A DNA stretch of 64,000 bases from Propionivibrio soli (GTDB lineage Bacteria; Pseudomonadota; Gammaproteobacteria; Burkholderiales; Rhodocyclaceae): the NCBI RefSeq assembly GCF_025770765.1, contig NZ_JANZKY010000015.1:62001-126000 (forward strand), written 5' to 3'. Below are positions 1 through 61,343 of this stretch, one piece after another; positions within the stretch are counted from its first letter, which is position 1, and each line of letters starts with the position of its first letter. The notes beneath the pieces are model-generated. The model saw only the letters and a list, made by a program, of their open reading frames with translations. It ran no database searches and was not told the DNA's origin. A program made the position numbers and the translations under genes.

Positions 1-33
1 GGATGCCGGAGGGCAGTTCTCGTCGGCTACTGA

Positions 34-231
34 TTCGACGTTCAGGATGGAAGCAAATCGACATCCCTCAACGACTTTCTCGTGGCTAGACACATCCGCC
101 TTGGAGCGGCACTCGGTGCCGACCTCCTGGAGGCCTTCGGAACGTTGATCGGAAACACCGATCGGAAAGCGGAAGAACTGGCGAATGGATTCCTTGCTCG
201 GCTAGAGAGGGAGAAGCGGTTCACCGGCTGA
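34..231 (+). CDS. Short unknown ORF, possibly the broken 3' end of a gene
   Basis: An open frame follows an in-frame TGA at 31-33 and ends at TGA 229-231. The only evident start codon is GTG at 82, which gives 49 residues. The translated end is helical and charged (a run like ARHIRLGAALGADLL, then an Arg/Glu/Lys-rich tail), so it could be the C-terminus of a gene that lies left of the window and has lost its frame. I recognise no family. From 232 to 454 I see no gene. Confidence 0.25.
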   Translation, partial: FDVQDGSKSTSLNDFLVARHIRLGAALGADLLEAFGTLIGNTDRKAEELANGFLARLEREKRFTG

Positions 232-454
232 TTTCGGTCTTGCATCGCGGCGCTGGGACAACACGCCGAAATGCCCAGGGGCAGGATACGAAAGCTGGGT
301 AAATAGCTCGTTGGCTACTGTTCCGTGATCGAAGACGTCGACTTATTGGCCGGAACGGGTGTTAACTTCACCATTCGACGAAGTCAGGAAGCAACCAGAA
401 GCGATCGTCGAATAAGGCGGACGTTTGCTCTGTCCGTATGATTGTTGGTTGATA

Positions 455-484
455 AGGAGACCGGAACCGGTCGGTCTCTTTTGT
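455..484 (+). terminator. Rho-independent terminator before the cassette array
   Basis: Perfect 7-bp stem GAGACCG (457-463) and CGGTCTC (472-478) with an 8-nt loop, followed by TTTTGT. This is a classical intrinsic terminator and would separate whatever is transcribed on the left from the cassette array. Confidence 0.7.
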
Positions 485-493
485 ATTCAATAC

Positions 494-567
494 GTTAGAC
501 GCGTCTCCAACGTGTCCGTATTATTAACAATAACCCGGACGCTTTGGCGTCTGAATAACTGTTATGC
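494..567 (+). other. Palindromic site at the left edge of the array (attC- or attI-like)
   Basis: A nested palindrome: AGACGC (497-502) pairs with GCGTCT near 547-552, and GTGTCCG pairs with CGGACGC. The right part, from TAACAA at 525 to GTTATGC at 561-567, also reads as a short attC-like imperfect inverted repeat. It directly precedes the first complete cassette. The core GTTATGC departs from GTTRRRY, so the exact nature of the site is unsure. Confidence 0.5.
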
Positions 568-584
568 ATCTTAGGAGTCTGTAG

Positions 585-1427
585 TTGACCGAATCTCGTA
601 ACCCATATATCGACGCCAATGGAACTCCGAAACTGAGGCGATCAGTTGTCGGCTTCATCGACATTTTGGGCTATACGGATCTCGTGAAGTCTGCGAAGTC
701 ACGCAAGGAAAGCCAAGACATACTTGATCGCCTTCATAGGACCCTAAAGCGATCGAGAGAACATGTCGATCCGAACCAATCCGAAGACACATTGCGAAGG
801 CTCCGCGATAAGGACTTTTCTGCGTTTCGGGCCTTTACTGACAACATCGTCATTGGTCATCCAATACATGATGATGGCGAAATCGAACTTGGTAGCGTCT
901 TCAACGACCTGTCGTACTTCCAAATGCTCATGACGATGGAAGGATTCTTTGTGCGAGGTGCTATAGCAATTGGCGATCTATATATGGACGACATTGCAGT
1001 TTTCGGTGGAGGATTGATAGAAGCCTACGAAGCCGAAACAACGTTGGCCCGCGATCCGAGAATTGTTCTTGCGCCATCCGCTCAAACTGCAGTGAATCGG
1101 CATCTTGAGTACTACGGCAGAGGTTCTCATGCGCCTCAAAATCGAGACCTTCTCCGTGATAGCGACGGACAATACTTCGTTAACTATCTCGACACTCTCA
1201 TTCCCGAAAACGGCCACTTCTACGAAAAGGAACTTTCTTCTCATAAGGCAAGGATTGAAGAGAAACTAGCGCTACTTAGGTCTCGCCCGCCTGTTTGGGC
1301 AAAGTATCTCTGGGCAGCCAACTACCATAACTATTGGTGCGACCAAAACTCGTGCGTTGACGCATCAATGAAAATTGACACAGAAACTTTTCAACTGTCG
1401 CCCGCTAGGCTGGTGTCAGATGCATAA
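585..1427 (+). CDS. Cassette 1: class III nucleotidyl-cyclase-like protein
   Basis: A 280-residue protein starting at TTG 585 behind a TTAGGAG ribosome site. Seen: a segment VVGFIDILGYTDLV at residues 21-34, a second aspartate in FTDNIVIG (Asp86), then RGAIAIGDLY around 124-133 and a GGGLIEAYEAE segment around 141-151. This order matches the two metal aspartates and the later substrate region of class III adenylate/guanylate cyclase folds, including the stand-alone cyclases of Pycsar anti-phage systems. The usual Asn of the transition-state motif is not evident, so activity is uncertain. No recognised effector gene follows. The stop codon lies inside the left core of the next attC. A non-catalytic cyclase-homology protein is the main alternative. 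Confidence 0.6.
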   Translation: MTESRNPYIDANGTPKLRRSVVGFIDILGYTDLVKSAKSRKESQDILDRLHRTLKRSREHVDPNQSEDTLRRLRDKDFSAFRAFTDNIVIGHPIHDDGEIELGSVFNDLSYFQMLMTMEGFFVRGAIAIGDLYMDDIAVFGGGLIEAYEAETTLARDPRIVLAPSAQTAVNRHLEYYGRGSHAPQNRDLLRDSDGQYFVNYLDTLIPENGHFYEKELSSHKARIEEKLALLRSRPPVWAKYLWAANYHNYWCDQNSCVDASMKIDTETFQLSPARLVSDA

Positions 1428-1488
1428 CCTTTCATTCGAGCGGACCTGCGAGAGAAGCCGCGCAGGCCGCTCAATTCAAACGTTAGCC
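1422..1488 (+). other. attC site 1
   Basis: 67 bp. Left arm GCATAAC..GAGCGGACCTGCG pairs with right arm CGCAGGCCGCTC..GTTAGCC; one unpaired A in the left arm is the extrahelical base expected in attC. Confidence 0.9.
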
Positions 1489-1497
1489 GTCTTAAAC

Positions 1498-1941
1498 ATG
1501 AATCAACCAGTTGTCCGCGAAGTTACGCTGAAAAAAGAGTATTCGTTTCAATACGAGAACTTCGTGTTGTCATCCCAGCACGAGCTCTACCTTGTGCTCG
1601 CCAAAGATGGCTCTTCTGTCAGTGCACTGAAGTTCCGGTTCAGCACATTCAAGTACGGTAGTCCCAATGATGAAGCGCGAGGCAGTCATCCTCTCGCAAA
1701 ATTCGGTTTGGGCTTGTATGGCCTGTATCAAGTCGAGAACTCGCCTTGGATTCATGAACTCATGGTTGCCAACCGGATTCATCCCAGGCATCAGGATTTA
1801 ATGTTTGCTGACCGCAAACACTTTATCGCTTGCTTCAAAGATGTGATGCTGGAGGTTGTCTGTCGTGAATTCGAAGAGATCGAGATCGAAGAGCGCGCTT
1901 TACTGGCTGTTCTTCAGGCGGAGCTGCTGTGCCTAGAATGA
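1498..1941 (+). CDS. Cassette 2: unknown 147-residue protein
   Basis: Starts at ATG 1498, ten bases after the attC 1 core, and stops at TGA 1939 just before attC 2. The same frame is open upstream, but those codons fall inside the attC site. No signal peptide or membrane segment. Residues from about 60 to 115 are the most structured-looking part, with an HPLAKFGLGLYGLYQVE stretch and an aromatic/acidic C-terminal helix. I do not recognise the family. Confidence 0.65.
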   Translation: MNQPVVREVTLKKEYSFQYENFVLSSQHELYLVLAKDGSSVSALKFRFSTFKYGSPNDEARGSHPLAKFGLGLYGLYQVENSPWIHELMVANRIHPRHQDLMFADRKHFIACFKDVMLEVVCREFEEIEIEERALLAVLQAELLCLE

Positions 1942-1948
1942 GCGAGAC

Positions 1949-2044
1949 GGCTAACCCTACAGTCGAGCGGGACAGCCAACAAGCTGCGCTTGTTGGTTCC
2001 CTCCGTGCTTCGCACTCCGGCTGCCCCTCACTTCCACGTTAGGC
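1949..2044 (+). other. attC site 2
   Basis: 96 bp from GGCTAAC to GTTAGGC, with an inner self-complementary part CCAACAAGCTGCGCTTGTTGG. It begins eight bases after the stop of cassette 2. Confidence 0.9.
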
Positions 2045-2061
2045 AACACAGGACGCACCGT

Positions 2062-3060
2062 ATGTCTCTCGCGACTCTCTTCGCGCTGCATGAACGCGAG
2101 AGCCTTTACTCTGGCGCAAATTCTGCAATTTGGCATTCACACCAACTTGCCGACCACCTCGCCAAGGGCAAAATCAGAGAGGAAGACTACGTCGCCACAC
2201 TCGTAACGAATGGCATTCCCCTGCTATTGGACCGCTGGGAGCCACTCCTGCGTCCAAAGGGAATTACCCTAAAGCTCGCTGGTGTGTTCTGTCACGGACA
2301 TCCTCAGGTCTCGTTTGGCGTTCCTCGTAATCAGGTTGAACTCGCCGATCTACTCGTCGTACACCAACATACAAAGGGCACCCGCGTATCGGCTAGAGCC
2401 ATTCTTCTTCAGGCCAAGATGTCGACTGACTCTACGCACAGACTTTCCGCATCAGATCCTCAGCTGCAACTCTTCAGTACTTGGCCGTCGTTCGAGTTTG
2501 TTACGGGTGGTCTTGCTCCTGGGCTTCGCAATATCAAGGAGAAGGGGAAAGGCTCTCGCTACGCACTGATACATGATGGCCCCTCATATCCAGAGCAGAT
2601 TACGTGGACTGATCAATGTCCTTGGGCGGCAAGTCCAGCAACGCCGATGCTTACCGCTGATCGCTCGTTAGCGCGTCTGCTTGGCGACATACTCTTAAAT
2701 AAGGACGGCAGGCCATTTCAACTCGGAAAACCCAAAGATGATTGGTCTCGCACGATTCAAGAGTTACTTGAGACGACGGGGAAGCGTACGTACAGGCGCG
2801 CCAATATCAAGCGTGGGCCTACGCCGCGCATCACCGGCAATCTTGTCGGCTCTGGTGTAATGCTTGCCTACGCGCCTCATCTGCAGTTTCCTTTCCCATT
2901 TTCGGCATCCAGAGTTTCCATTCTCGACCGCTACTTCGGAGCGACGCCAACCTCACAGGGCGACGGTAGCGACAACATGTCACCACCAGCAGAGCAGCCT
3001 GATCTCCCCCCCGGAGGGATTTCAAGCCTGATCATCGAAACAGCCGAAGGTGCAGGCTAA
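2062..3060 (+). CDS. Cassette 3: PD-(D/E)XK nuclease-like unknown protein
   Basis: 332 residues; ATG 2062 is the first Met after the attC 2 core. Seen: ELADLLVV at 93-100 followed 13 residues later by ILLQAK (114-119). An acidic residue pair (Glu93, Asp96) plus a hydrophobic strand ending in QxK (Gln117, Lys119) is the layout of the PD-(D/E)XK nuclease core in its QxK variant. A segment QLQLFSTWPSFEF around 153-165 follows, and the C-terminus is proline-rich and probably disordered. Proteins of this type occur in restriction and defence loci, but that role is inference. Alternative: a non-nuclease protein with a chance motif. Confidence 0.6.
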   Translation: MSLATLFALHERESLYSGANSAIWHSHQLADHLAKGKIREEDYVATLVTNGIPLLLDRWEPLLRPKGITLKLAGVFCHGHPQVSFGVPRNQVELADLLVVHQHTKGTRVSARAILLQAKMSTDSTHRLSASDPQLQLFSTWPSFEFVTGGLAPGLRNIKEKGKGSRYALIHDGPSYPEQITWTDQCPWAASPATPMLTADRSLARLLGDILLNKDGRPFQLGKPKDDWSRTIQELLETTGKRTYRRANIKRGPTPRITGNLVGSGVMLAYAPHLQFPFPFSASRVSILDRYFGATPTSQGDGSDNMSPPAEQPDLPPGGISSLIIETAEGAG

Positions 3061-3074
3061 GTGGCGCAGGTGTT

Positions 3075-3173
3075 GCCTAACAACTCCGTCGAGAGGGACG
3101 GTTTGCAAGCTGCGCTTGCAAATACCCTCCGCCGCTTCGCGGCTCCGGCCGCCCCTCACGTCAAACGTTAGCG
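3075..3173 (+). other. attC site 3
   Basis: 99 bp from GCCTAAC to GTTAGCG. It contains an inner stem TTTGCAAGCTGCGCTTGCAAA and a second GCCGCTTCGCGGC-type stem. It has a very regular, intact appearance. Confidence 0.9.
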
Positions 3174-3176
3174 CTC

Positions 3177-3827
3177 ATGAGCCCCGAGCTAGAGCAGCGC
3201 ATTGCACACATCGAGAGCCTTAAGGACGCTCATCTCGCTTTGGCTATGGAGATGCTCAAGGCCGATGGCGGAACGATGTACTCGCTCGACATGCTTGCCG
3301 CCGCAGCGATCAAGAGATCAATGGCGCAATGCGCCGGCTTCGCGTCGTTGGTGCGAGATAAGAACTATGTCTGTGCAGCTTCGCTGTTACGACTTCAACT
3401 CGATAGTTGCATGAGGTTCTTTGCGGCTTTCATCGTCAAGGAGCCACACGAATTTGCGAGCCAAGTTCTCCATGGAACCCCTATTCGGAAGCTAAAGGAC
3501 CGGAATGGAAAGTTCATGACCGACAAGCACCTCGTGGACCTTCTTGGGAAGAAGTACAGTTGGATGCCGAGAGTCTACGATTCAACGTCGGGATTCATAC
3601 ATCTCTCACAAAAGCACATTTTCACGGTGTTCCAAGATTGGGAGGGGAACGGGAAGTTCTCAGCGAGAATTGGTGCTGACGACAGAGACATTCCCGAAGA
3701 CCTTTGGATTGAACTGGCAGATGGTTTTCTTGCGGCAACGGATGCATTGTTCGAGTATCTGAAGGGATGGACCCTTACCAAGAAACACCCAGAACTTGCC
3801 AGCCAGGCCCGAAAACATGAGCGCTAA
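3177..3827 (+). CDS. Cassette 4: unknown all-alpha protein
   Basis: 216 residues, ATG 3177 three bases after the attC 3 core. Predicted mostly helical, soluble, with a Cys-rich first half (CAGFASLV, DSCMRFF). A conserved-looking block around residues 140-151 reads STSGFIHLSQKH, preceded by an MTDKHLVDLL helix. It resembles helical hypothetical proteins common in cassettes and defence contexts (DUF5677-like in my recollection), but I cannot confirm a family. It is the second of three adjacent soluble unknowns (cassettes 3, 4 and 6). Confidence 0.6.
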   Translation: MSPELEQRIAHIESLKDAHLALAMEMLKADGGTMYSLDMLAAAAIKRSMAQCAGFASLVRDKNYVCAASLLRLQLDSCMRFFAAFIVKEPHEFASQVLHGTPIRKLKDRNGKFMTDKHLVDLLGKKYSWMPRVYDSTSGFIHLSQKHIFTVFQDWEGNGKFSARIGADDRDIPEDLWIELADGFLAATDALFEYLKGWTLTKKHPELASQARKHER

Positions 3828-3887
3828 CCTTGCAGTGGAGCGGACGCTTCGCCTATCGGCTTGGCGTCACTCACTTTCACGTTAGCC
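3822..3887 (+). other. attC site 4
   Basis: 66 bp from CGCTAAC (overlapping the TAA stop of cassette 4) to GTTAGCC; arms GGAGCGGACGC and GGCGTCACTC pair with a bulge. Confidence 0.9.
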
Positions 3888-3892
3888 GTTCC

Positions 3893-4357
3893 ATGGCCGA
3901 TACCCGCCCAACACCACTCTCGTTCTTTGCAGCGCTTAAGCTCTGTTTGCTTCTGCTCGTATCGCCGCGTCGATTCATCGAGATCGAGCGTGCAGATCAG
4001 GAAACGCGAAACAACTACACCGGCTATTCTGAGCCACGCCACCGCGTATATGTCATTCGGGCCGCATTTTTCAAATCGCTTGCTCTTGTGTTGGGGTTTT
4101 CGGTTCTCGGGTATGCCACCGGGCATTTGATGCATCTGCTAGGCCGATGTGCCACGTCCGAAACCGTTGTTTGGCTCCAGATCGTAGGAGCGGGCCTTCT
4201 CCTTTGGGGCACACTATTTGTTCGCGGCTGGGAAGTTCAGTCTTTTTCCGGGGTGCAATTCTCTGAGCGAGTCAATCAATGGCTATACCGCGCGCTCTAT
4301 TGCCTTGGTACTACGGCTATTGTTTACTCGCTATCGTTTCCCCAATGCGGAGCGTAA
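3893..4357 (+). CDS. Cassette 5: small membrane protein
   Basis: 154 residues from ATG 3893, five bases after the attC 4 core. A hydrophobic amphipathic stretch at residues 9-24 is followed by three likely membrane helices near 58-80, 91-111 and 131-149, with a basic cytoplasmic-looking loop in between. No recognised family. Small membrane proteins of unknown role are frequent in cassette arrays. Confidence 0.6.
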   Translation: MADTRPTPLSFFAALKLCLLLLVSPRRFIEIERADQETRNNYTGYSEPRHRVYVIRAAFFKSLALVLGFSVLGYATGHLMHLLGRCATSETVVWLQIVGAGLLLWGTLFVRGWEVQSFSGVQFSERVNQWLYRALYCLGTTAIVYSLSFPQCGA

Positions 4358-4358
4358 C

Positions 4359-4448
4359 GGCTAACAATTCGGTCAAGGCCGCTCCCTGCGGTCGCTGGGC
4401 GCTGCGCGATAAAGCTCCGCGCAGCGCCCCTTACCTTCGACGTTAGGC
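4359..4448 (+). other. attC site 5
   Basis: 90 bp from GGCTAAC to GTTAGGC; an inner stem GGGCGCTGCGCG pairs with CGCGCAGCGCCC, one of the longest arms in the array. Confidence 0.9.
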
Positions 4449-4456
4449 GGCAGAAC

Positions 4457-5215
4457 ATGGTCCCTTCTGAATCACCTTCTCCGTTGCCTTGGGTCGAGGC
4501 GTTGCGGTCAATTGGTGAAAGTGTGGCGCGCGTTATGCAAGCCTTCTCAGCCAACGTACTACCATCGGTCGTTGCTCTTGCAGAGGGCATACGAAAGCTC
4601 CCGGATGAATTGCGCCCCATGGTTCGCTCCTTGGCAGAACGTGGTTGGTTTATTTCCGGTGAAATGGGCATGTCCGAGCTGCGCCACTTTCAACACTTAT
4701 CAGGCTCTTCTACCCCGGAAGAAGTGGACGCCATGTTGGCGCAATGGATCGAGAACGAAATTGATCGTATCTATGCAACCGCAGTGCAGCACTTCCCGAA
4801 GCGCCAAGCCATATTGGCCGCCGCCTTTAACGCACACAGAACCGGCATATATGAACTGTCCATTCCTGCGCTCTTGATACAGGTCGAAGGCATGTGCATC
4901 GAGACTCTGGGAAGGAAGTTGTTCGCCACGAAAGGTGGAATTCCAAGAACAAAAGAAGTGACAGACGCGCTAATCGACGGTGCTTTCTCTGAGGTCATTT
5001 TCCTTCCGCTAAGGGAAGCAAACGGCTTTACCGCAAGCAACGACACGAGACGCAACTGGCCCAACTCTCCCAATCGGCATGAGATTCTGCACGGCATCTC
5101 TACAGACTATCCGAGCAAGCTAAATAGCCAGAAAGCCATTTCCTTGTTGGAGTATTTCGTGACTTTCGTTGCAGCAGAAAAGGCGGAGGGGCCAAGTGGC
5201 ACATCTGCCGCCTAA
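4457..5215 (+). CDS. Cassette 6: HEPN-like unknown protein with an R-x4-H motif
   Basis: 252 residues from ATG 4457. Largely helical and soluble. Near the C-terminus it has SPNRHEILHG, giving Arg207-x4-His212, the R-x(4-6)-H pattern of HEPN-fold ribonucleases, followed by a DYPSKLNSQKAISLLEYF helix (about 217-234). In HEPN RNases the Arg and His pair across a dimer to cut RNA, and many act in abortive infection or toxin-antitoxin systems. Here the assignment rests on motif position and helicity only. No antitoxin-like partner is in the same cassette. Stop TAA overlaps attC 6. Confidence 0.6.
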   Translation: MVPSESPSPLPWVEALRSIGESVARVMQAFSANVLPSVVALAEGIRKLPDELRPMVRSLAERGWFISGEMGMSELRHFQHLSGSSTPEEVDAMLAQWIENEIDRIYATAVQHFPKRQAILAAAFNAHRTGIYELSIPALLIQVEGMCIETLGRKLFATKGGIPRTKEVTDALIDGAFSEVIFLPLREANGFTASNDTRRNWPNSPNRHEILHGISTDYPSKLNSQKAISLLEYFVTFVAAEKAEGPSGTSAA

Positions 5216-5279
5216 CCCTTCGGTCAACACGGACCTTGCGAATAAAGCCGCGCAAGGCCGGTGAATTCAGACGTTGGGC
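5210..5279 (+). other. attC site 6
   Basis: 70 bp from GCCTAAC to GTTGGGC; arms GGACCTTGCG and CGCAAGGCCGG pair, with an unpaired base in the left arm. Confidence 0.9.
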
Positions 5280-5282
5280 GTC

Positions 5283-5396
5283 ATGGAATGGTGTTGCGTT
5301 ATGCTGACTAGGCCACTTAGTGCGGAGTATGTTGTTCCACCGATTGAGAATGTTTGCTCTGATGCTTTCACTGTCGGTAATGGTTGTTCGACGTAA
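5283..5396 (+). CDS. Cassette 7: 37-residue leader ORF coupled to the cupin gene
   Basis: ATG 5283 lies four bases after the attC 6 core; the frame ends at TAA 5394-5396, which overlaps the AAGGAG ribosome site (5395-5400) of the following cupin gene. The peptide is Cys-containing and not membrane-spanning (contains VVPPIENVCSDAFTVG). An internal ATG at 5301 could be an alternative start. The geometry suggests a translated leader that couples or controls cupin translation. It could also be a chance frame within a cassette's own promoter region. Confidence 0.4.
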   Translation: MEWCCVMLTRPLSAEYVVPPIENVCSDAFTVGNGCST

Positions 5397-5410
5397 GGAG
5401 ATATTTCGCT

Positions 5411-5722
5411 GTGAAGGTATTCCGAAGCAAGAAATTCAAGGCAAGTCGACCGTGGGGCGCAGAAAACGTCGCCAACATGGCAGGTACCACGGTACGCCTC
5501 CACTGGACGGATCAGCCGTACAAATGGCACACCAACGACGGCGAGGAAGTATTCGCTGTCCTTGATGGTACTGTCGACATGCACTACCGAGCCTCAGGGG
5601 TAGAGCAAGTAGTGACGTTAGAGACCGGTGACGTTTTCTTCGCAGAGGTCGGGTGTGAGCATGTTGCACACCCTCGCGGTGAAGCCCGTATTCTGGTCGT
5701 CGAACGAGAAGGTAGCGTCTGA
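5411..5722 (+). CDS. Cassette 7: cupin-domain protein
   Basis: 103 residues from GTG 5411 with AAGGAG ten bases upstream; no ATG gives a better start. A single small beta-barrel cupin: motif 1 region YKWHTNDGEEVFAVLDG (His, Glu) and motif 2 region GDVFFAEVGCEHVAHP (His). Members bind a metal or act as sugar-isomerase-like or sensor proteins; the substrate cannot be told. Unlike the other cassettes the gene starts about 130 bases after the attC core, leaving room for its own promoter or leader. Confidence 0.75.
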   Translation: MKVFRSKKFKASRPWGAENVANMAGTTVRLHWTDQPYKWHTNDGEEVFAVLDGTVDMHYRASGVEQVVTLETGDVFFAEVGCEHVAHPRGEARILVVEREGSV

Positions 5723-5728
5723 TATGGC

Positions 5729-5771
5729 GCCCAACGTTTCGGTCGGCCGCCTCTCACCTCGGATGTTAGCA
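5729..5771 (+). other. attC site 7 (short, degenerate)
   Basis: Cores GCCCAAC and GTTAGCA are present 43 bp apart, but the inner arms (TTCGGTCGGC and CACCTCGGAT) pair only partly. Position between two cassettes supports it as an attC remnant or a minimal site. Confidence 0.6.
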
Positions 5772-5778
5772 ATCGGAG

Positions 5779-6453
5779 ATGTTCGTGTTAGGAACCTTGA
5801 AGTTCGCGGTTGTTCTTCTTGCCCTTATCCCTCTCGATGGCATGGCTGTTGAGGTATTTGACAGTTTTCCCAACGAAATACGAGCCAGCGATCGATACGT
5901 CATTTATTCGTACGGGCTAATTGTAGAGGGTAGCGATCCGACGCCTGTCCATCCGACGCGCGGCATTTACGACTTCCCCGCGATTAAGCAGGCGCTGTTC
6001 ATGAATGGGGATTTCAATCTCATCGCACCCCAGCGACCTAAGAACACCGAAATCCGCTCGTACGTAGCGACTCTCGAGTCATGGGTTCGACGCTTGGTGG
6101 CCGCAGGAGTCAAGCCGAGTCGAATCACTCTCGTCGGATTTTCTCGAGGCGGCCAGCTGACGGCATACGCTTCTGGTCGCCTCGTCGACCTTGAATTGAA
6201 TACGGCAATCATGGGCGCGTGCAGCAATGGGGACATAGACCGTGATCCACCTCTAACGCTGAGCGGAAATTTCATGTCCATCTATGACGCCAAGGATTCG
6301 GTGCTGTCGTGCGAGAAGATCGCAACGCGAAGTAGGCTCACCTCGTTTGAAGAGATTGCGATCTCAACAGGCAAGGGGCACGCAGCCTTCTTTCGTCCAT
6401 TGCCGGAGTGGGTAGATCCATTAAAGCAATGGATACAAAAGACCAATCGCTAA
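5779..6453 (+). CDS. Cassette 8: secreted alpha/beta hydrolase
   Basis: 224 residues from ATG 5779. An N-terminal signal peptide (hydrophobic 7-19, likely cut after GMA near residue 23) predicts export. The nucleophile elbow GFSRGG places Ser121; Asp169 or Asp172 in YDAKDS and His200 in GKGHAAF complete a plausible catalytic triad in the right order. This is a serine esterase/lipase/peptidase-like fold; the substrate is unknown. It is the only clearly exported enzyme in the array. Confidence 0.75.
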   Translation: MFVLGTLKFAVVLLALIPLDGMAVEVFDSFPNEIRASDRYVIYSYGLIVEGSDPTPVHPTRGIYDFPAIKQALFMNGDFNLIAPQRPKNTEIRSYVATLESWVRRLVAAGVKPSRITLVGFSRGGQLTAYASGRLVDLELNTAIMGACSNGDIDRDPPLTLSGNFMSIYDAKDSVLSCEKIATRSRLTSFEEIAISTGKGHAAFFRPLPEWVDPLKQWIQKTNR

Positions 6454-6508
6454 CAACCCCATGCACGCGACGAGCGAAGACGCACGCACGTGACGACGAA
6501 CGTTAACC
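6448..6508 (+). other. attC site 8
   Basis: 61 bp from CGCTAAC (overlapping the TAA stop) to GTTAACC; arms GCACGCGACGAGCG and the GCACGTGACGACGAA side pair imperfectly. Confidence 0.75.
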
Positions 6509-6520
6509 CGCACAACCGAA

Positions 6521-7186
6521 ATGCACTGCGCCATCCTCTGGGACAACGACGGAGTTCTGGTAGACAGCGAGCGCCTCTTCTATGAGGCGAACCGAACCTA
6601 CTTCGCGGACCTCGGCATCGACTTGGATGTCAGCCTCTACTTCGAACACTTTCTGTGCAACAACGCGGGCTTGTGGCATCTCTTGCGAGACAGGGGTTGG
6701 GACGATCAGCGCATCGCCGAAGGGCGAGCTCAGCGCAATCGCCTCTACGCATCTCTCCTGCGTGAATCGCCAAACCTGATCAACCCGGGCATTGAGAGTG
6801 TTCTCGAAGAGTTCGTCGGCTCTTGCCGCATGGCGGTCGTCACAAGCTCCGCGCGCGAGCACTTTGATCAGATTCACGGTCGCACAAACCTCCTTAGGCA
6901 CTTTGAGCTTGTGGTTGCCGCGGGAGACTACGCACGAGAGAAGCCGGACCCCGAGCCCTACCAAGTCGCTATGAACCGGCTATCCGTCGAGCCCAGAGAC
7001 TGTATCGCGGTCGAAGACTCGCCTCGAGGGTTGCGCGCGGCAACCGCTGCTGGCATCGATTGCATCGTCCTGCGCTCCGAACTTACTGAGCAGCATTCGT
7101 TCGAAGATGCATTCGCCACCGTTGACTCGCCAATTGAACTTGGTTGGGAACTTCGTCGCTGGCTGGCGCGACGCAGTGCGGCCTAA
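6521..7186 (+). CDS. Cassette 9: HAD-family phosphatase/phosphoglucomutase-like
   Basis: 221 residues from ATG 6521. All HAD motifs are visible: DNDG (nucleophile Asp8, acid Asp10), VVTSS ending near 110, Lys141 in REKPDPEPY, and EDSPRG at 165-170. The alpha-helical cap after motif I is of the beta-phosphoglucomutase/phosphoglycolate phosphatase type. It hydrolyses or transfers phosphate on a small metabolite in the cytoplasm; the substrate cannot be read from sequence. Confidence 0.85.
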   Translation: MHCAILWDNDGVLVDSERLFYEANRTYFADLGIDLDVSLYFEHFLCNNAGLWHLLRDRGWDDQRIAEGRAQRNRLYASLLRESPNLINPGIESVLEEFVGSCRMAVVTSSAREHFDQIHGRTNLLRHFELVVAAGDYAREKPDPEPYQVAMNRLSVEPRDCIAVEDSPRGLRAATAAGIDCIVLRSELTEQHSFEDAFATVDSPIELGWELRRWLARRSAA

Positions 7187-7211
7187 CCTTCGCTCAGCTT
7201 AACCGTTGGGC
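7181..7211 (+). other. attC remnant 9 (cores only)
   Basis: GCCTAAC (overlapping the TAA stop of cassette 9) and GTTGGGC lie only 31 bp apart, too close for a normal folded site. It looks like an attC that lost its central arms by deletion. Confidence 0.55.
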
Positions 7212-7234
7212 TGCACGCTGTTTTAGAGGCATAC

Positions 7235-7582
7235 ATGCAGAATTCTTTCTGGGAAAAGGTTGACTCTCTGATTCAAACCTCCCAAGTGATAATTGATCGC
7301 CCTAAAGGATCGATACACCCCCGTTTCAATAGCATCATCTACCCTCTCGATTATGGATATCTTCATGGGACATCGAGTGGAGACGGAAATGGAATCGACA
7401 TTTGGAAAGGATCATTGGATTCATGTTTTTGCGATGCCGTAATCTGCACCATTGACGTCATGAAACGCGATTCAGAGATCAAGCTATTGATTGGCTGTAA
7501 TGAAAGCGAAAAACAAATAGTTCTCAATTTTCATAACGAATCTCGATATATGTCTGGCGTCCTGATTAGTCGCAATTCATGA
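7235..7582 (+). CDS. Cassette 10: short inorganic-pyrophosphatase-like protein
   Basis: 115 residues from ATG 7235; visibly AT-richer than its neighbours. Family I pyrophosphatase features are clear: DRPKGS (Lys24), YPLDYGYLHGT (36-45), the metal block SGDGNGIDIW (Asp50, Asn52, Asp55), then DVMKRDSEIKLL (Asp74, Lys83). Full-length enzymes are about 170-180 residues, so the C-terminal third with the Tyr-Lys pair is missing, and the middle metal aspartate of the D-G-D-x-x-D block reads Asn. It may be a specialised nucleotide-type pyrophosphohydrolase or an inactive form. Confidence 0.7.
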   Translation: MQNSFWEKVDSLIQTSQVIIDRPKGSIHPRFNSIIYPLDYGYLHGTSSGDGNGIDIWKGSLDSCFCDAVICTIDVMKRDSEIKLLIGCNESEKQIVLNFHNESRYMSGVLISRNS

Positions 7583-7666
7583 GCAACAGAGGCCCTCAGC
7601 AGCTTCGCCAATCGATCAACCGACTGCCCGGCAAGCTGCGTTTGCCGGGTATCTGAAACGCTAGCC
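7581..7666 (+). other. attC site 10
   Basis: 86 bp from GAGCAAC (overlapping the TGA stop) to GCTAGCC; the inner stem CCCGGCAA..TTGCCGGG is perfect. The right core has GCT instead of GTT. A shorter version from GATCAAC at 7613 is possible. Confidence 0.7.
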
Positions 7667-7672
7667 ATCTCC

Positions 7673-8038
7673 ATGCGTCCATCGATTTTCCCTTCCGACG
7701 ATTCGCTCCCGACATGGCTGCATACGACGCTTCTGGTTCTCGTCGTTTCACCGTTCTCACTGATGACGCTTTGGTGGGGAGTTGGCGCCTTGGTTTCAGG
7801 ATACCTGGAGCCTCTGGCTGGCCCGGAGTTTGGCCAGTTCTTTTTTGGTCCCGTCGCGTTGCACGGCGCTGCAGCAAGACTCGCGGGCTTCGCACTGCTC
7901 GTTCTCAGCGGCGCCTTCGCGGCTATCGCTGTGCGGTTCTCACGATTTGCGAGCGACTCAGGATTCACTCGATTTGCACCATGGCTACTCCTTGTTTTGT
8001 TCATTTTCGTTTCGTTCGTGGTCAGCACTCTGGCATGA
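7673..8038 (+). CDS. Cassette 11: small membrane protein with three helices
   Basis: 121 residues from ATG 7673, six bases after the attC 10 core. Likely membrane helices at about 17-41, 68-88 and 100-120. Charged residues are few and sit in the loops. No family recognised. Confidence 0.6.
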   Translation: MRPSIFPSDDSLPTWLHTTLLVLVVSPFSLMTLWWGVGALVSGYLEPLAGPEFGQFFFGPVALHGAAARLAGFALLVLSGAFAAIAVRFSRFASDSGFTRFAPWLLLVLFIFVSFVVSTLA

Positions 8039-8046
8039 CTTTTACA

Positions 8047-8144
8047 CCTAAGCTCTCGGGCAGTACGAACTGCCAGCAAGCTGCACTTCCTAACACCCGC
8101 CTGCATACGGCGCACCGGCAGCCGGTTACCTGCAGCGTTTGAAC
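8047..8144 (+). other. attC-like region 11 (degenerate)
   Basis: Between cassettes 11 and 12. A core-like CCTAAGC at 8047 and GTTTGAAC at 8137 frame the region, and an inner hairpin GGCAGTACGAACTGCC is present, but the outer arms no longer match. Called mainly by position. Confidence 0.4.
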
Positions 8145-8151
8145 CATAGCC

Positions 8152-8793
8152 ATGTATATCCCGAAGCACTTTGCTGAGCCAAGAGTCGATGCCTTGCATC
8201 AGCTCATTCGCGCCCGTCCGCTCGCCACGCTGGTTACGCTTGCGTCGAACGGGCTCAATGCCAATCACATTCCGTTGCACCTGTCTCCGGAACCGAGTCC
8301 TTTCGGAACGTTGCGCGGCCATGTGGCCCGCGCCAACCCGATCTGGAAGGACATCGCCAACGATGTGGAGGCACTGGCTATCTTCCATGGCCCCGACGCT
8401 TACGTTACGCCTTCGTGGTACCCCACCAAAGCAGAAACGGGGAGGGTTGTGCCCACTTGGAACTATGCGGTTGCCCACGCCTACGGCACACTCCGTGTGG
8501 TCGATGACCCCGCTTGGCTTCGCGCACACCTTGAGGCGCTGGTGGCCCATAACGAGAGCGCTTTACCCGAGCCGTGGCATATCGAAGATGCACCTTCGGA
8601 CTATGTTGAGAAACTCCTTGGGGCGATCGTCGGCATCGAGATCGTCGTCACACGCCTGTCAGGCAAGTGGAAGACAAGCCAAAACCAGTCCGCGGAGAAC
8701 CGAGCCGGAGTCATTCATGGTCTTCGCGCCAGCGGAGCGTCGGAGGCTAATGACATGGCCGCTCTCATTGAGGGTAGCAACCCAACGCGTTAA
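8152..8793 (+). CDS. Cassette 12: PaiB-type FMN-binding regulator/flavin protein
   Basis: 213 residues from ATG 8152. The start MYIPKHFAEP, the block GLNANHIPLHL and the block YVTPSWYPTK..VVPTWNYAVAHAYG are characteristic of the PaiB family (split-barrel FMN-binding proteins annotated as negative transcriptional regulators), whose usual length is about 200 residues. The C-terminal GKWKTSQNQ..NRAGVIHGL motif is also typical. It probably binds flavin in the cytoplasm; DNA binding has been claimed for Bacillus PaiB but is not visible here. Confidence 0.85.
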   Translation: MYIPKHFAEPRVDALHQLIRARPLATLVTLASNGLNANHIPLHLSPEPSPFGTLRGHVARANPIWKDIANDVEALAIFHGPDAYVTPSWYPTKAETGRVVPTWNYAVAHAYGTLRVVDDPAWLRAHLEALVAHNESALPEPWHIEDAPSDYVEKLLGAIVGIEIVVTRLSGKWKTSQNQSAENRAGVIHGLRASGASEANDMAALIEGSNPTR

Positions 8794-8880
8794 CCCAACC
8801 TTGCCAGGGACTGTCGGCAAGTTCCGCGTGGCGGTATCTGCCTTGCGGGCTCCTGCGGCCCTAGAGCTCAAACGTTGGAT
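8793..8880 (+). other. attC site 12
   Basis: 88 bp from ACCCAAC, right after the TAA stop of cassette 12, to GTTGGAT. Inner arms include CTTGCCAGGGA and the TGCCTTGCGGGCTCC side. Confidence 0.75.
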
Positions 8881-8899
8881 CTAATAGGAAGGAGCCGTT

Positions 8900-9817
8900 G
8901 TGACTAGACTCAAAACACCATTCGGATTTCACTCTACGGCTTCGGAGGTCATCGACGGCATCGACTTGACCGGGAAGCACGCTATCGTCACCGGTGGCGC
9001 GGCCGGTATTGGCATCGAGACCGCTCGCGCACTTGCACAGGCTGGCGCAGCCGTCACCCTTGCCGTGCGGCGGCCGGAATCGGCCATCGCCGTGGCTGAG
9101 AATTTGCGCCACGCAACCGGCAATCGGAATATCCTCGTTAGGAGCTTGGACCTTGCTGATTTGCGCTCGGTAAGTGCCTTCGCCGCAGGGTGGGAGAACC
9201 CACTGCATATTCTTGTTAACAACGCCGGGATCATGGCCGTCCCCGAGTTGGAGAAAACCTCTCAAGGGTTTGAGATGCAGTTCGGCACCAACTTTCTGGG
9301 CCATTTCGCACTGACTTATTGGTTGCACAAAGCACTTGCTGCGGCTAACGGGGCGCGTGTCGTTTCGCTGAGTTCCAGCGGCCATCTCTTCTCACCCGTC
9401 AACTTTGACGACTTGAATTTCGATTTCATTCCGTACACGCCGTTTGGCGCGTACGGCCAATCCAAGACCGCCAACGCGCTACTGGCGGTGGCCGTCACGC
9501 GGCATTGGTCCAGCGATGGCATCTTCTCCAATGCCGTAAATCCGGGCGCGATAGCCACTGGTTTACAAAAGCATACGGGTGGATTGAAGACCCCTGTTGA
9601 GCGCCGCAAGACCCCGGAACAAGGGGCCGCAACCTCGGTTCTTCTTGCGGCTTCCCCGCTTGTTGAGGGGGTAGGCGGCCTCTATTTCGAAGACTGCAAC
9701 GAATCCCATCCTGTCTCGAAGCGCCCGACAGACTTCAGTGGCGGTGTCGCCCCCTACGCCCTCAATGCAGAGAATGCGGAGCGTCTTTGGGATGTGGCTC
9801 TTAGACTGATTTCGTGA
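8900..9817 (+). CDS. Cassette 13: short-chain dehydrogenase/reductase
   Basis: 305 residues from GTG 8900 behind a strong AGGAAGGAG site. Classical SDR: cofactor motif TGGAAGIG (31-38), NNAG (107-110), catalytic Ser near 158-160, Tyr185-x3-Lys189 in YGQSK. The extended length and the N-terminal FGFHSTASEVIDGIDLTGK are like the retinol-dehydrogenase/WW-oxidoreductase-type SDRs of bacteria. An intact, presumably NADP-dependent oxidoreductase of unknown substrate. The small winged-helix-like gene of cassette 14 follows on the same strand. Confidence 0.85.
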   Translation: MTRLKTPFGFHSTASEVIDGIDLTGKHAIVTGGAAGIGIETARALAQAGAAVTLAVRRPESAIAVAENLRHATGNRNILVRSLDLADLRSVSAFAAGWENPLHILVNNAGIMAVPELEKTSQGFEMQFGTNFLGHFALTYWLHKALAAANGARVVSLSSSGHLFSPVNFDDLNFDFIPYTPFGAYGQSKTANALLAVAVTRHWSSDGIFSNAVNPGAIATGLQKHTGGLKTPVERRKTPEQGAATSVLLAASPLVEGVGGLYFEDCNESHPVSKRPTDFSGGVAPYALNAENAERLWDVALRLIS

Positions 9818-9910
9818 GCGCAACTAGTGTTGCTGCATAGATCCGACCCGTCATTCCAGCGGGCGTTGCGCGATGGAACCGCTCATCGCCGTTGAATTCA
9901 AACGCAGGGC
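9818..9910 (+). other. attC site 13 (right core mutated)
   Basis: 93 bp from GCGCAAC, directly after the TGA stop, to GCAGGGC. The sequence leading into the right core (AATTCAAAC) matches sites 1 and 3, but GTT has become GCA. Confidence 0.6.
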
Positions 9911-9945
9911 GTCATTCGTAGCACTTTTCTAGAGAGGATACCGCC

Positions 9946-10380
9946 ATGCAACTTCCCCCGCTCACACAGTCAGTTGGCTCAGCAGAGCGTTCCATGCGGG
10001 CGCTGCTCGAGCGGCATCTTCAAGACGTAGGGCTTTCATTTCCAGCTTGGATTTCCCTTGTATTTACCAATGCTTCGCCACTAACCGTTGATCAAATTGC
10101 GCAACGCCAGATCAGTGGTCATGTGGTCTCAAGCATTGATGAGGTGCGCTTGGAAATAGACACACTCTTACAGGCTGGCCTGCTCAAAGCGAGTGAGAGC
10201 GGGACTCTTTCGCACACAGACAAAGGCTCCGCTCTCTTTGTCGAACTCAGCGGTAAGGTCAAGGACGTTACTCAGTCTCTTTACGGCGATTTGCCCAGTG
10301 AGGACTTGGAAGCCACTCACCGTACCCTGCTAGAAATTGCAAAAAGGGCGAACGGTATTCTCACGTCTTCCAAACCCTAA
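9946..10380 (+). CDS. Cassette 14: small winged-helix (MarR-like) protein
   Basis: 144 residues from ATG 9946 with an AGAGAGGA ribosome site. Helical N-terminus (RALLERHLQDVGLSFPAWI), then a TVDQIAQRQISGHVV..DEVRLEIDTLLQAGLL block that fits a DNA-recognition helix and wing, and TLSHTDKGSALF, typical of MarR-like winged helices. Probably a small DNA-binding regulator in the cytoplasm. Its position after the SDR cassette could make it a regulator of that gene, but each has its own attC context. Confidence 0.6.
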   Translation: MQLPPLTQSVGSAERSMRALLERHLQDVGLSFPAWISLVFTNASPLTVDQIAQRQISGHVVSSIDEVRLEIDTLLQAGLLKASESGTLSHTDKGSALFVELSGKVKDVTQSLYGDLPSEDLEATHRTLLEIAKRANGILTSSKP

Positions 10381-10381
10381 T

Positions 10382-10425
10382 GCCTAACCGATCATTCCAC
10401 CGGTTCGATTTGACGTGCCTTAATC
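10382..10425 (+). other. attC remnant 14
   Basis: GCCTAAC at 10382-10388 next to the TAA stop and a short ACCGATC..CGGTTCGAT inverted repeat; no GTTRRRY core is left before the next gene. Probably a decayed attC at the array end. Confidence 0.4.
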
Positions 10426-10431
10426 CGACCC

Positions 10432-10782
10432 ATGTACTCCAGCAACCTCTTCACCAACGCCAACCCGCCCGCTGAAGGCGAGCGCTTCGACGAGCTCCTT
10501 CGCCACAAGAATCTCGTGATCGAGCGGATCATCAGTTCTTCGCTCATCACTCCCCAGGAATACGTGCAATCCCAGGATGAGTGGGTGCTGCTCGTGCAAG
10601 GCGAGGCGGCGCTACAGGTTGATGGAAGGTCGGTTTCGCTGAAGGCCGGCGACTATCTGTTCCTGCCGGCCGGCACGCCGCACACGGTTGAGCGCACGAG
10701 TGACGGAGCGATGTGGCTCGCCGTTCATCTGCATCCCCAGCCCTTACCGGAATTCGACGGCGGCTCACTCCCTGCAGGCTGA
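10432..10782 (+). CDS. Cassette 15 or array-edge gene: cupin-domain protein
   Basis: 116 residues from ATG 10432. Single cupin barrel: EWVLLVQGEAAL (motif 1 lacks the usual His pair) and AGDYLFLPAGTPHTVE (motif 2 with His), which ends in VHLHPQPLPE. Related to small cupins annotated as phosphoribosylaminoimidazole-carboxylase-like or metal-dependent isomerase-like; function unknown. No attC follows, so it may be the last cassette or the first resident gene beyond the array. From 10783 to 10956 I see no gene. Confidence 0.75.
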   Translation: MYSSNLFTNANPPAEGERFDELLRHKNLVIERIISSSLITPQEYVQSQDEWVLLVQGEAALQVDGRSVSLKAGDYLFLPAGTPHTVERTSDGAMWLAVHLHPQPLPEFDGGSLPAG

Positions 10783-10956
10783 TCTTCAAACGCTCCACCA
10801 GGGAGGGGGGCTGGACGTTTTTTGCCTGTCCCGAAATGACACAGCCGCTTTTCTGAGTGCGCCCAATCCGTTGCGCGTGCCCGGCCCGACCCCGAATACT
10901 GCGGCCAACTGAGACGAAGGCGCTTACCGTGGCGAGCGCGAGCATGGGGTCGGACG

Positions 10957-11979
10957 ATGGACGAGATTTCACTTTCCGCTGGTACGGCGGCCAAAGCGGC
11001 TGCGGGGCTGACGGATGGCTTCGGCCGTGCGATCACCTACCTTCGGCTCTCGGTCACCGATCGGTGCAACCTGCGCTGTTCGTATTGCATGCGTACCGAC
11101 GTCAAGTTTCTGCCGAAAGCCGACATCCTTACCCTTGAAGAAATGGAGCGTTTAGGCGCGGCGTTTATCCGTTTCGGCGTGCGCAAGATCCGGCTGACGG
11201 GCGGCGAGCCTCTGGTGCGCCCGGGGGTGATGCTGCTGGTCGAGCGGCTGGGCGCCCGCGTGGCGTCGGGCGAATTGGACGAACTGACGCTGACGACCAA
11301 CGGCACTTTACTGGCAAAGTACGCCACCGGTTTGGCGTCGGCGGGGATCGGCCGAGTGAATGTTTCGCTCGATACGCTTGACGATGAAGTCTTTCGCCGG
11401 CTTACTCGGCGCGATGGTATTGCCGATGTGCTCAACGGCATCGAGGCGGCGCGCTCAGCCGGGCTTGCGGTACGCATCAACGCCGTGGCGATGGCCGGGG
11501 TGAACGAGGCGGAATACGACCGCTTGATCCGCTGGTGCGGGGAGCAGGGCTGCGATCTCGCTTTGATCGAGCTAATGCCGTTCGGCGAGCGTACCGAAGG
11601 CTTGTATCTGCCGCTCGACCCGGTGCGCGAGCGTCTCGCTACGCGCTGGACGTTGACTCCGGCGAAGCACAAAAGCGGTGGTCCGTGCCGCTATTGGCGG
11701 ATCGCCGAGACCGGGCGGTTGATCGGCTTCATCACACCGATGAGCCACGGCTTCTGCTCCTCGTGTAACCGCGTCCGCATTACGTGCACTGGCAAGCTGG
11801 TGCCGTGCATGGCGCGGCAGGGCGACTACGACTTGCGTGCCGCCTTGCGCTCTCCGGAAGGCGACCAGGCTCTGGAAGCCGCGATATTTGCGGCGGTGGG
11901 GTGCAAACCGGAAGGTCACCAATTCAACGAAGGTTACAAGCCCCAGCAGGGCCAGCCGATGTGGCGGATGGGCGGCTAG
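10957..11979 (+). CDS. moaA: GTP 3',8-cyclase MoaA (radical SAM, molybdopterin synthesis)
   Basis: 340 residues. Converts GTP to 3',8-cyclo-GTP, the first step of molybdopterin cofactor synthesis. The radical SAM motif CNLRCSYC near residues 37-44, RLTGGEPL, the C-terminal second [4Fe-4S] cluster region GFCSSCNRVRIT..CM, and the C-terminal Gly-Gly end are all present, so the enzyme is complete. It heads the hyp operon, 47 bases before hypB; no other molybdopterin gene is nearby, which is unusual. The start is ATG 10957; the upstream ribosome site is weak. Confidence 0.93.
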   Translation: MDEISLSAGTAAKAAAGLTDGFGRAITYLRLSVTDRCNLRCSYCMRTDVKFLPKADILTLEEMERLGAAFIRFGVRKIRLTGGEPLVRPGVMLLVERLGARVASGELDELTLTTNGTLLAKYATGLASAGIGRVNVSLDTLDDEVFRRLTRRDGIADVLNGIEAARSAGLAVRINAVAMAGVNEAEYDRLIRWCGEQGCDLALIELMPFGERTEGLYLPLDPVRERLATRWTLTPAKHKSGGPCRYWRIAETGRLIGFITPMSHGFCSSCNRVRITCTGKLVPCMARQGDYDLRAALRSPEGDQALEAAIFAAVGCKPEGHQFNEGYKPQQGQPMWRMGG

Positions 11980-60713: not shown

Positions 60714-61343
60714 TCAAGCGGCCTTACTCGGCAAACGCAGCAGCCCAAGCCCAAGGCAGCAGAAGATGGCACCGGAAACGCGATTGAATAGCCGGATGCG
60801 GGTTGGATTTTCAAATTGTCTTCTCAGGCTGTGCGCAAGCAGAGCATAGAACGTGTGCGACAGGACAGCGCAGGCCGAGAACGAGGTCGTCAGGACGACA
60901 AATTGTTCGATGAGCGGCAAGTCGCGCGTCAGGAACTGCGGAAAGAGCGCTGAGAAAAAAAGAATGGCTTTGGGATTCGTAAGCGCCAGCACGATTCCCC
61001 TGCCGAACAATTGCCAAGGCTCTCTGGGTAGTGTCGCGTTGGCGCTGTTAAACGCACTCGCCCGGCTTCGCCACTGCTTGTATCCGAGATAAATGAGATA
61101 CAGAGCCCCCATGACCTTCAAGACGGTAAAGGCAAGGGCTGAGGTCGCCAACACAACGCCCATCCCAGCCATCGCTATTCCCGACACGATAAACAAGCCG
61201 AGAGCATTGCCCAGCGAGCAAACCAATGCACTGCGCGGGCCGAGCGAAACCGAGTTGGATATAGCGAGCAGCACCGCGGGTCCGGGAGTGAATGTAGTAA
61301 GGAGTGCCACACCACAAAAGAGCAGCCAGTGGGTTAGGGTCAT
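60714..61343 (-). CDS. LysE/RhtB-family amino-acid exporter
   Basis: 209 residues from ATG 61343 (MTLTHWLLFCGVALLTTFTPGPAVLLAISNSVSLGPRSA). Six membrane helices with the conserved FTPGPA loop and ALTNPKAILFFSALFPQF. Exports amino acids or related metabolites from the cytoplasm. Confidence 0.92.
   Translation of the reverse strand: MTLTHWLLFCGVALLTTFTPGPAVLLAISNSVSLGPRSALVCSLGNALGLFIVSGIAMAGMGVVLATSALAFTVLKVMGALYLIYLGYKQWRSRASAFNSANATLPREPWQLFGRGIVLALTNPKAILFFSALFPQFLTRDLPLIEQFVVLTTSFSACAVLSHTFYALLAHSLRRQFENPTRIRLFNRVSGAIFCCLGLGLLRLPSKAA

Follow-up and report, generated by a model that had tools for sequence, protein, structure and literature searches.

A probable integrase-lacking cluster of attC sites with 14 single-gene cassettes beside the hydrogenase genes of a Propionivibrio-like Rhodocyclaceae chromosome

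We analyzed a 64-kb stretch of a 36-contig Propionivibrio-like Rhodocyclaceae genome (contig C7, positions 62001 to 126000; hereafter the window, from whose first base positions are counted) that carries an array of gene cassettes near its left end. The array consists of 14 single-gene cassettes, c01 to c14, at positions 585 to 10380. All 14 genes lie on the plus strand, separated by gaps of 48 to 195 bp, and 12 of the 14 gaps 3′ of the genes contain a scored attC site, an arrangement of one gene and one attC in the same direction. Hydrogenase genes flank the array, with the hypA side of the locus to the left and the moaA/hypB side to the right (gene names from translations), and its G+C content is 0.54 versus 0.60 for window positions 10957 to 64000. 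With a probability that we put at about 0.9, the array is a CALIN, a cluster of attC sites without an integron integrase, because contig C7 has no integron integrase gene (intI) and the intI genes of this genome are found only on contigs C13 and C33. As such, it is a large example of an already known kind of element.

The cassette genes proved to be mostly accessory genes of unknown function, as an earlier note on this DNA, made from the sequence alone, had proposed: the curated Pfam cut-off is exceeded by 4 of the 14 proteins (c07, c09, c12, and c13), those of c08, c10, c11, and c14 match below the cut-offs, and c01 to c06 have no match. At the left end, c01 (585..1427, 280 amino acids) belongs to an orphan family of plasmids and phages (PHROG 23933, E 1.3e-29), and c02 (1498..1941, 147 amino acids) has no family in Pfam, PADLOC, or PHROG scans. 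The 332-residue product of c03 (2062..3060) contains an ELADLLVV..ILLQAK motif. Plasmid searches found relatives of c04 (3177..3827, 216 amino acids) on 11 plasmid records and of c06 (4457..5215, 252 amino acids; PHROG 28904, E 7.9e-15) on 7. Between these two lies c05 (3893..4357, 154 amino acids), hydrophobic by eye and without a family in Pfam and PADLOC scans. By Pfam, c07 (5411..5722) encodes a cupin, of which the C33 array of this genome contains a paralogue with 72% identity; c08 (5779..6453) encodes an alpha/beta-hydrolase-like protein (PF02230, 22.6 bits, cut-off 23), and c09 (6521..7186) a HAD-type hydrolase (PF13419, 86.6 bits). A weak likeness to inorganic pyrophosphatase is seen in c10 (7235..7582; PF00719, 16.2 bits, cut-off 23.5), followed by c11 (7673..8038, 121 amino acids, hydrophobic by eye). 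The remaining products are an FMN_bind_2 (PaiB-like) protein (c12, 8152..8793; PF04299, 224.5 bits), a short-chain dehydrogenase (c13, 8900..9817; PF00106, 95.9 bits), and a protein with a weak winged-helix-like match (c14, 9946..10380; PF21715, 19.9 bits, cut-off 30).

The attC sites were scored with a covariance model (R1) built from 11 sites beside the two intI genes of the genome, 3 from C13 and 8 from C33, with the window sites excluded, and run without filters over the whole 64 kb. In the RNAalifold structure of the 11 sites, the R boxes are paired, the L boxes are paired with a one-sided unpaired base, and there is a terminal stem; 12 of the 22 pairs show compensatory changes. R1 gives 12 matches at E<1 between positions 1419 and 9913, every one of them on the minus (bottom) strand and overlapping an intergenic gap, and the window sites align to the attC structure of the model. 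The only other matches at E<1 in the window are three opposite-strand echoes of array sites, and the best match outside the array has an E value of 1.0. The cassette array with attC sites recognized in the earlier note is thus confirmed, and the covariance-model check that it had suggested gave more than its threshold of three sites.

Seven sites have E values of 1.1e-8 or better: those of c01 (1419..1491, 64.0 bits, E 6.3e-14), c02 (1946..2047, 49.4 bits, E 3.1e-10), c03 (3072..3176, 43.3 bits, E 1.1e-8), c04 (3819..3890, 43.7 bits, E 8.8e-9), c05 (4356..4451, 69.9 bits, E 2e-15), c06 (5207..5282, 47.2 bits, E 1.1e-9), and c13 (9838..9913, 46.3 bits, E 1.8e-9). Two more are below 0.01, the short site of c07 (5726..5774, 22.3 bits, E 0.0023) and that of c08 (6445..6511, 23.7 bits, E 0.001). 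The three weak ones belong to c09 (7178..7214, reduced to about 31 bp; R1 16.6 bits, E 0.06), c10 (7599..7669, 14.6 bits, E 0.2), and c12 (8790..8883; R1 12.3 bits, E 0.75). Spacing between the core boxes of the 12 sites ranges from 31 to 99 bp.

A second model, R2, was made from 118 attC sites of other genomes, picked by R1, with no training site from this genome. It recovers the same 12 sites with E values up to 1.7, scoring the c09 site at 17.8 bits (E 0.03) and the c12 site at 10.9 bits (E 1.7). Nine genomes of the genus, together with G139 of another family, supplied the 118 training sites (117 distinct), and 93.1% of the alignment cells in their attC stem are paired. Their covariation score is 0.477, compared with 0.142 after shuffling and no more than 0.089 after sliding, on an alignment fitted to the model, which favors the score. 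Rfam gave no match in the window at its gathering thresholds.

Eight places in the genome match Phage_integrase. None of them is on contig C7, though the contig continues for 62 kb to the left of the window, and this agrees with the earlier observation that no integrase is visible and with the option of an integrase-less cluster. Two of the eight exceed the cut-off (265 bits) of the NCBIfam integron integrase family TIGR02249. The C13 gene (C13:2038-3048) is full-length, encoding 336 amino acids and scoring 501 bits; the C33 gene (about 65.2 to 66.1 kb; L011 9181-10110, minus strand) scores 371.5 bits. With both integrases as tblastn queries, the 12 kb of flank to the left and window positions 1 to 11000 returned noise (best E 0.19). 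The C13 integron probably continues into C17, since the two contigs overlap by 127 bp.

At the ends of contigs C13, C17, and C19 (L010 1-127, L124 15358-15484, and L125 8829-8947), 119 to 127 bp are held in common, starting at the attC cleavage region. In the assembly, the same cassette thus stands behind two distinct attC sites, through either duplication of the cassette or a mixture of arrangements in the sample.

The array is fossil in part, with the core or most of the hairpin gone from some sites. Among the 12 scored sites, 10 retain the GTT cleavage core of the R′ box; those of c10 and c13 have lost it and read GCT and GCA, respectively. The median R2 score is 26.6 bits for the window sites and 62.9 bits for the two intI-linked arrays (P = 0.001 with the unscored junctions set low; P = 0.009 with the 12 scored window sites alone). 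Unscored junctions were assigned 8 bits in the R1 comparison and 8.4, 7.1, and 5 bits in the R2 comparison; R1, having been trained on C13 and C33 sites, favors those arrays in any comparison of strength. Sites of the window and of the other intI-free stretches do not differ significantly in strength (P = 0.08, R1).

Movement of integron cassettes depends on exposure of the attC bottom strand, which then forms a hairpin and is cut by the integrase, IntI, at the GTT core. Because no intI lies in cis, an integrase could act on the window array only in trans, from C13 or C33. That CALINs can be mobilized in trans, by an IntI from another place in the cell, is described in excerpts of PMC9024848, PMC12444791, and PMC11389934. 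Given that there is no integron promoter, most cassettes would be expected to be silent unless they carry promoters of their own. A promoter scan found 2 sites versus 5.7 expected; one of them, at 496-524 before c01, is at chance level.

Several points weigh against the CALIN assignment and its mobility. Five of the 15 junctions are weak, three being unscored and two having E values of 0.2 and 0.75, and these rest more on position than on score. R2 ranks a match outside the array, at 28040 (E 0.43), over two weak array sites, and the two models are not fully independent, the training sites of R2 having been chosen by R1. The N-terminal domain of the C33 integrase is open in frame, but no ATG, GTG, or TTG precedes it. 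Activity of the C13 and C33 integrases on the window sites is a prediction, and no sign was seen that the window array had been excised or rearranged.

attC sites are scattered over the genome. At E<=0.01, R2 finds 49 of them in 11 contig stretches: 4 on C3, 7 on C7, 3 on C13, 1 on C16, 11 on C17, 5 on C19, 2 on C23, 3 on C31, 8 and 1 in two stretches of C33, and 4 on C34. Given the overlap of C13 and C17, these correspond to about ten loci. The C19 and C34 stretches run off contig ends and may belong to other arrays. Six stretches are internal to their contigs and have no integron integrase near: those on C3, C7, C16, C23, C31, and C33 (at 145 kb). The single C16 site is joined by a second at E 0.04, and the one at 145 kb on C33 by a second at 1.6e-4. 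Across the genus, 21 of 28 genomes (this one included) have an R1 match at E<=0.001, with a maximum of 58 sites in G006, and 7 have none; 12 of the 28 have a TIGR02249 match over the cut-off. Fragmentation of the assembly alone does not account for the scatter, because G009, an assembly of 4 contigs, has 15 attC sites in 9 places.

The window attC sites are no closer to one another than to those of other arrays. We compared the 49 best-scoring of 64 R1 matches in the arrays of this genome, 7 of the 49 being window sites; the 15 weaker matches dropped include 7 opposite-strand echoes. The most similar other attC lies in the same array for 5 of the 49, versus 6.4 expected from shuffled labels. 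Further, a blastn search of window positions 1 to 10432 against 31 stretches (20 from other genomes and 11 from this genome, left flank included) gave 74 matches, of which 73 fall in the attC sites of c01, c02, c03, c05, and c06 and one in a gene (c07 versus the C33 array). Because the window attC sites fall into families that are also represented in other arrays of this genome and of the genus, the cassettes appear to come from a shared pool.

In one of these alignments, 49 bp are identical between window positions 3128-3176 and L122 9890-9938 in the C3 array. They cover the right half of the attC and the first bases that follow it; the left half is unmatched.

Sedentary chromosomal integrons of the Vibrio or Xanthomonas type have related attC families along the array and cassettes of mostly unknown function. 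The window array is alike in both respects; it differs in having no intI, no recognized attI, partly decayed sites, and just 14 cassettes. CALINs, in excerpts of PMC9024848, have at least two clustered attC sites, no intI nearby, and single-gene cassettes in one direction. The window array is the same in kind, with seven sites at E<=1.1e-8 and two more at E<0.01 within 8.5 kb, in a host that keeps its integrases elsewhere. In the same excerpts, CALINs average almost 6 attC sites and complete integrons 14; the window array is larger than the former, with 12 scored sites (7 strong), and several of its sites are decayed. In Xanthomonas, CALINs occur in about half of the genomes, at seven loci among well-sampled species, and like the window array they lie away from the intI locus of the same genome (PMC12444791, in excerpt). 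Here, in contrast, six intI-free stretches and two intI genes share one genome, and in the only relative open to comparison the homologous interval lacks the window array.

How the array came to stand without an integrase can be read in several ways. That it is no integron at all, and just an ordinary co-directional gene cluster with chance palindromes, might be suggested by the three weakest scored sites and the three unscored junctions, which are unconvincing alone. The strong sites refute this idea, to which we give almost no weight: all 12 matches fall in gaps, strand-specifically and with E values down to 2e-15, and the stems covary. It is also very improbable that the array forms the body of a chromosomal integron with its intI immediately to the left of base 1, an option that the earlier note had offered. 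The size of the array is near the complete-integron average of 14 attC sites (PMC9024848, in excerpt), but the 62 kb of contig to the left contain no Phage_integrase match, the intI genes being on C13 and C33. The nearest 12 kb encode hydrogenase, PAAR-type, and glutathione-transferase-like proteins (from translations), and only a misassembly could revive this reading.

A degraded integron, whose own intI and attI once stood at the left edge and were deleted so that the CALIN is a remnant, has in our estimate slightly less than an even chance. Loss of intI is given as the current paradigm for CALINs in PMC11389934 and proposed also in PMC9024848 (both in excerpt), and intI-linked arrays have stronger sites than the window array. 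In G009, an attC (C1:628909-629007) lies about 1.1 kb from an intI fragment (C1:627523-627831) with one TAG stop; therefore, integrase loss does occur in the genus. However, both integrases give noise in the left flank and array, positions 430 to 567 are no more like the regions before either intI than shuffles are, and the homologous interval of the relative G012 has no attC, which counts equally against an old insertion. Insertion in trans falls just as little short of even odds. The C13 or C33 integrase would have placed the cassettes, singly or as a block, at an attG-type site beside the hydrogenase genes, and insertion at attG sites has been published (Loot et al. 2024, as cited in excerpts of PMC12444791, PMC12901181, and PMC11389934). 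The six attC stretches inside contigs without an integron integrase near and the mixing of attC families among loci point in this direction. Against it, no empty site is readable (the G012 interval is filled, and a G009 locus has no joined relative), the right-edge site has lost its core, and intI remnants were searched for closely at the window array alone and not at the other five stretches. More tentatively, the integron of this genus may be a distributed system, in which one or two integrases keep inserting and shuffling cassettes in trans at numerous chromosomal places outside integrons and arrays are born without an integrase rather than losing it. We consider this possible at rather poor odds; it fits because the attC families are mixed over all loci and no intI remnant was found at the window array.

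For the origin of integrase-less arrays, integrase loss is the paradigm and insertion in trans a newer proposal. The main value of the CALIN described here is its setting, scattered arrays and two integrase genes in one genome. With about ten scattered attC stretches in an attC-rich genus, this is a natural setting in which to compare strains for array origin. The array also adds functionally uncharacterized cassette families; for two of them, homologues stand next to attC sites in other families. A partial survey of the literature found no integron work on this genus or family, which is not to claim that none is in print.

Those two homologues belong to c03 and c12. A 63% identical homologue of c03 is present in G139, where a scored attC ends 13 bp before the gene; among 399 genomes of the order, only G139 and this genome match c03. 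For c12, a 60% identical homologue in Methylotenera oryzisoli has an attC site on either side (E 0.007 and 0.16) and intI about 1.6 kb away; other relatives on intI-carrying contigs (L015, L019, and L023) are candidate cassettes at most. The possibility raised earlier, that these genes keep a conserved order in relatives without the palindromes, was followed for c01 and c03 in the 399 genomes and for all 14 genes against the loci compared; within that scope, no conserved run of genes was seen.

Members of the c01 family occur on 46 plasmid records; the plasmids, of rhizobia, Cupriavidus, and Gram-positive bacteria, carry it as a single gene. Neighbors of c01 relatives at three plasmid loci include integrases and transfer genes. 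One of these loci, on a Rhizobium plasmid, also has a patatin-like phospholipase, an endonuclease, and AAA ATPases close to the relative and may be a defence setting; the other two loci are less telling. Ten of the 399 genomes match c01 (this one included), the others at 26 to 36% identity, and nine short loci around those matches contain no attC. In viral contigs, a search with the c01 protein alone found no relative and one with the family alignment a single partial relative; c03 found no relative there. The family alignment of c01 conserves the blocks F-x-D-x-L-G, F-T-D-N, and R-G, whose order we take to resemble that of class III nucleotidyl cyclases. PDB sequence searches with c01 gave noise, and a single-sequence AlphaFold model had a mean predicted local distance difference test score of 33.7, too low for use. 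The cyclase-like motif order is shared with the Pycsar anti-phage system (PMC11224242, in excerpt), from which c01 differs in having no PADLOC match, recognized adjacent effector, PDB sequence match, or usable model. We do not call c01 a Pycsar protein, because the next cassette, c02, is not a recognized effector; the three plasmid relatives also have no annotated one, with several neighbors unnamed. In c03, ELADLL and LLQAK are conserved, a pattern that presumably resembles PD-(D/E)XK nucleases. From these motifs, c01 and c03 could point towards defence. The several defence-like unknowns that had been proposed for the array were not borne out by PADLOC: of nine cassette proteins scanned, eight had no match, c01 and c02 among them, and the c14 match (12 bits, E 0.013) was not counted.

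Three junctions, at 505-567, 8036-8150, and 10381-10430, look attC-like by eye and are scored above noise by neither R1 nor R2. At the left edge (494..568, plus strand), which may be an attC or a junction, there is a small hairpin, and cores of the GTTA type lie at 494 and 561; it is absent from the R1 matches, and part of it scores 8.4 bits by R2. The degenerate attC-like junction between c11 and c12 (8036..8150) is unscored by both models, and the right edge (10381..10430) is a degenerate remnant with its core lost, at 7.1 bits by R2. For the left edge as a candidate attI, local alignments of positions 430 to 567 to the regions before the two intI genes were not above shuffles, of which 160 of 500 and 226 of 500 reached the score, but those two regions are themselves mutually dissimilar. 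The upstream search that the earlier note had recommended gave neither an intI in the 12 kb of left flank nor an attI-like score at the edge.

The array had previously been counted as 15 cassettes, where we count 14. We take the cupin gene at 10432..10782 (plus strand) as host flank because its G+C content at third codon positions is 0.75 (versus 0.77 for the neighboring moaA and 0.42 to 0.69 for the cassettes), the stretches around its homologues in four relatives have no attC (one match, E 4.9, in five stretches totaling 88 kb with default filters), and similarity to them begins at or past its start codon. On the first two of these observations, we rejected it as a fifteenth cassette.

G012 is the only relative in the genus found to have both neighboring hydrogenase genes. 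Its hypA-moaA interval (L154), about 5.2 kb, is occupied by different genes, which from translations are a permease and a pst-like operon; no attC was found in it. DNA searches for an empty site in it matched just hypA and moaA, and no junction could be read. Joined flanks for the single-attC locus of G009 (L194) were found nowhere across the genus. That locus contains two short dispersed repeats (L194 3136-3232 and 1081-1222), not attC matches, that recur in several genomes of the genus. The left flank of the window array encodes, from translations, hydrogenase genes, hypA, a PAAR-like gene, duplicated small genes, and a glutathione-transferase-like gene on the opposite strand. The 3′ end of hypA is duplicated over 99 bp at 90% identity (C7:57994-58092 and 61189-61287; L009 7994-8092 and 11189-11287). 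Between the two copies lie 3.2 kb with the PAAR-like and duplicated small genes, as if this segment had been inserted carrying a copy of the hypA end.

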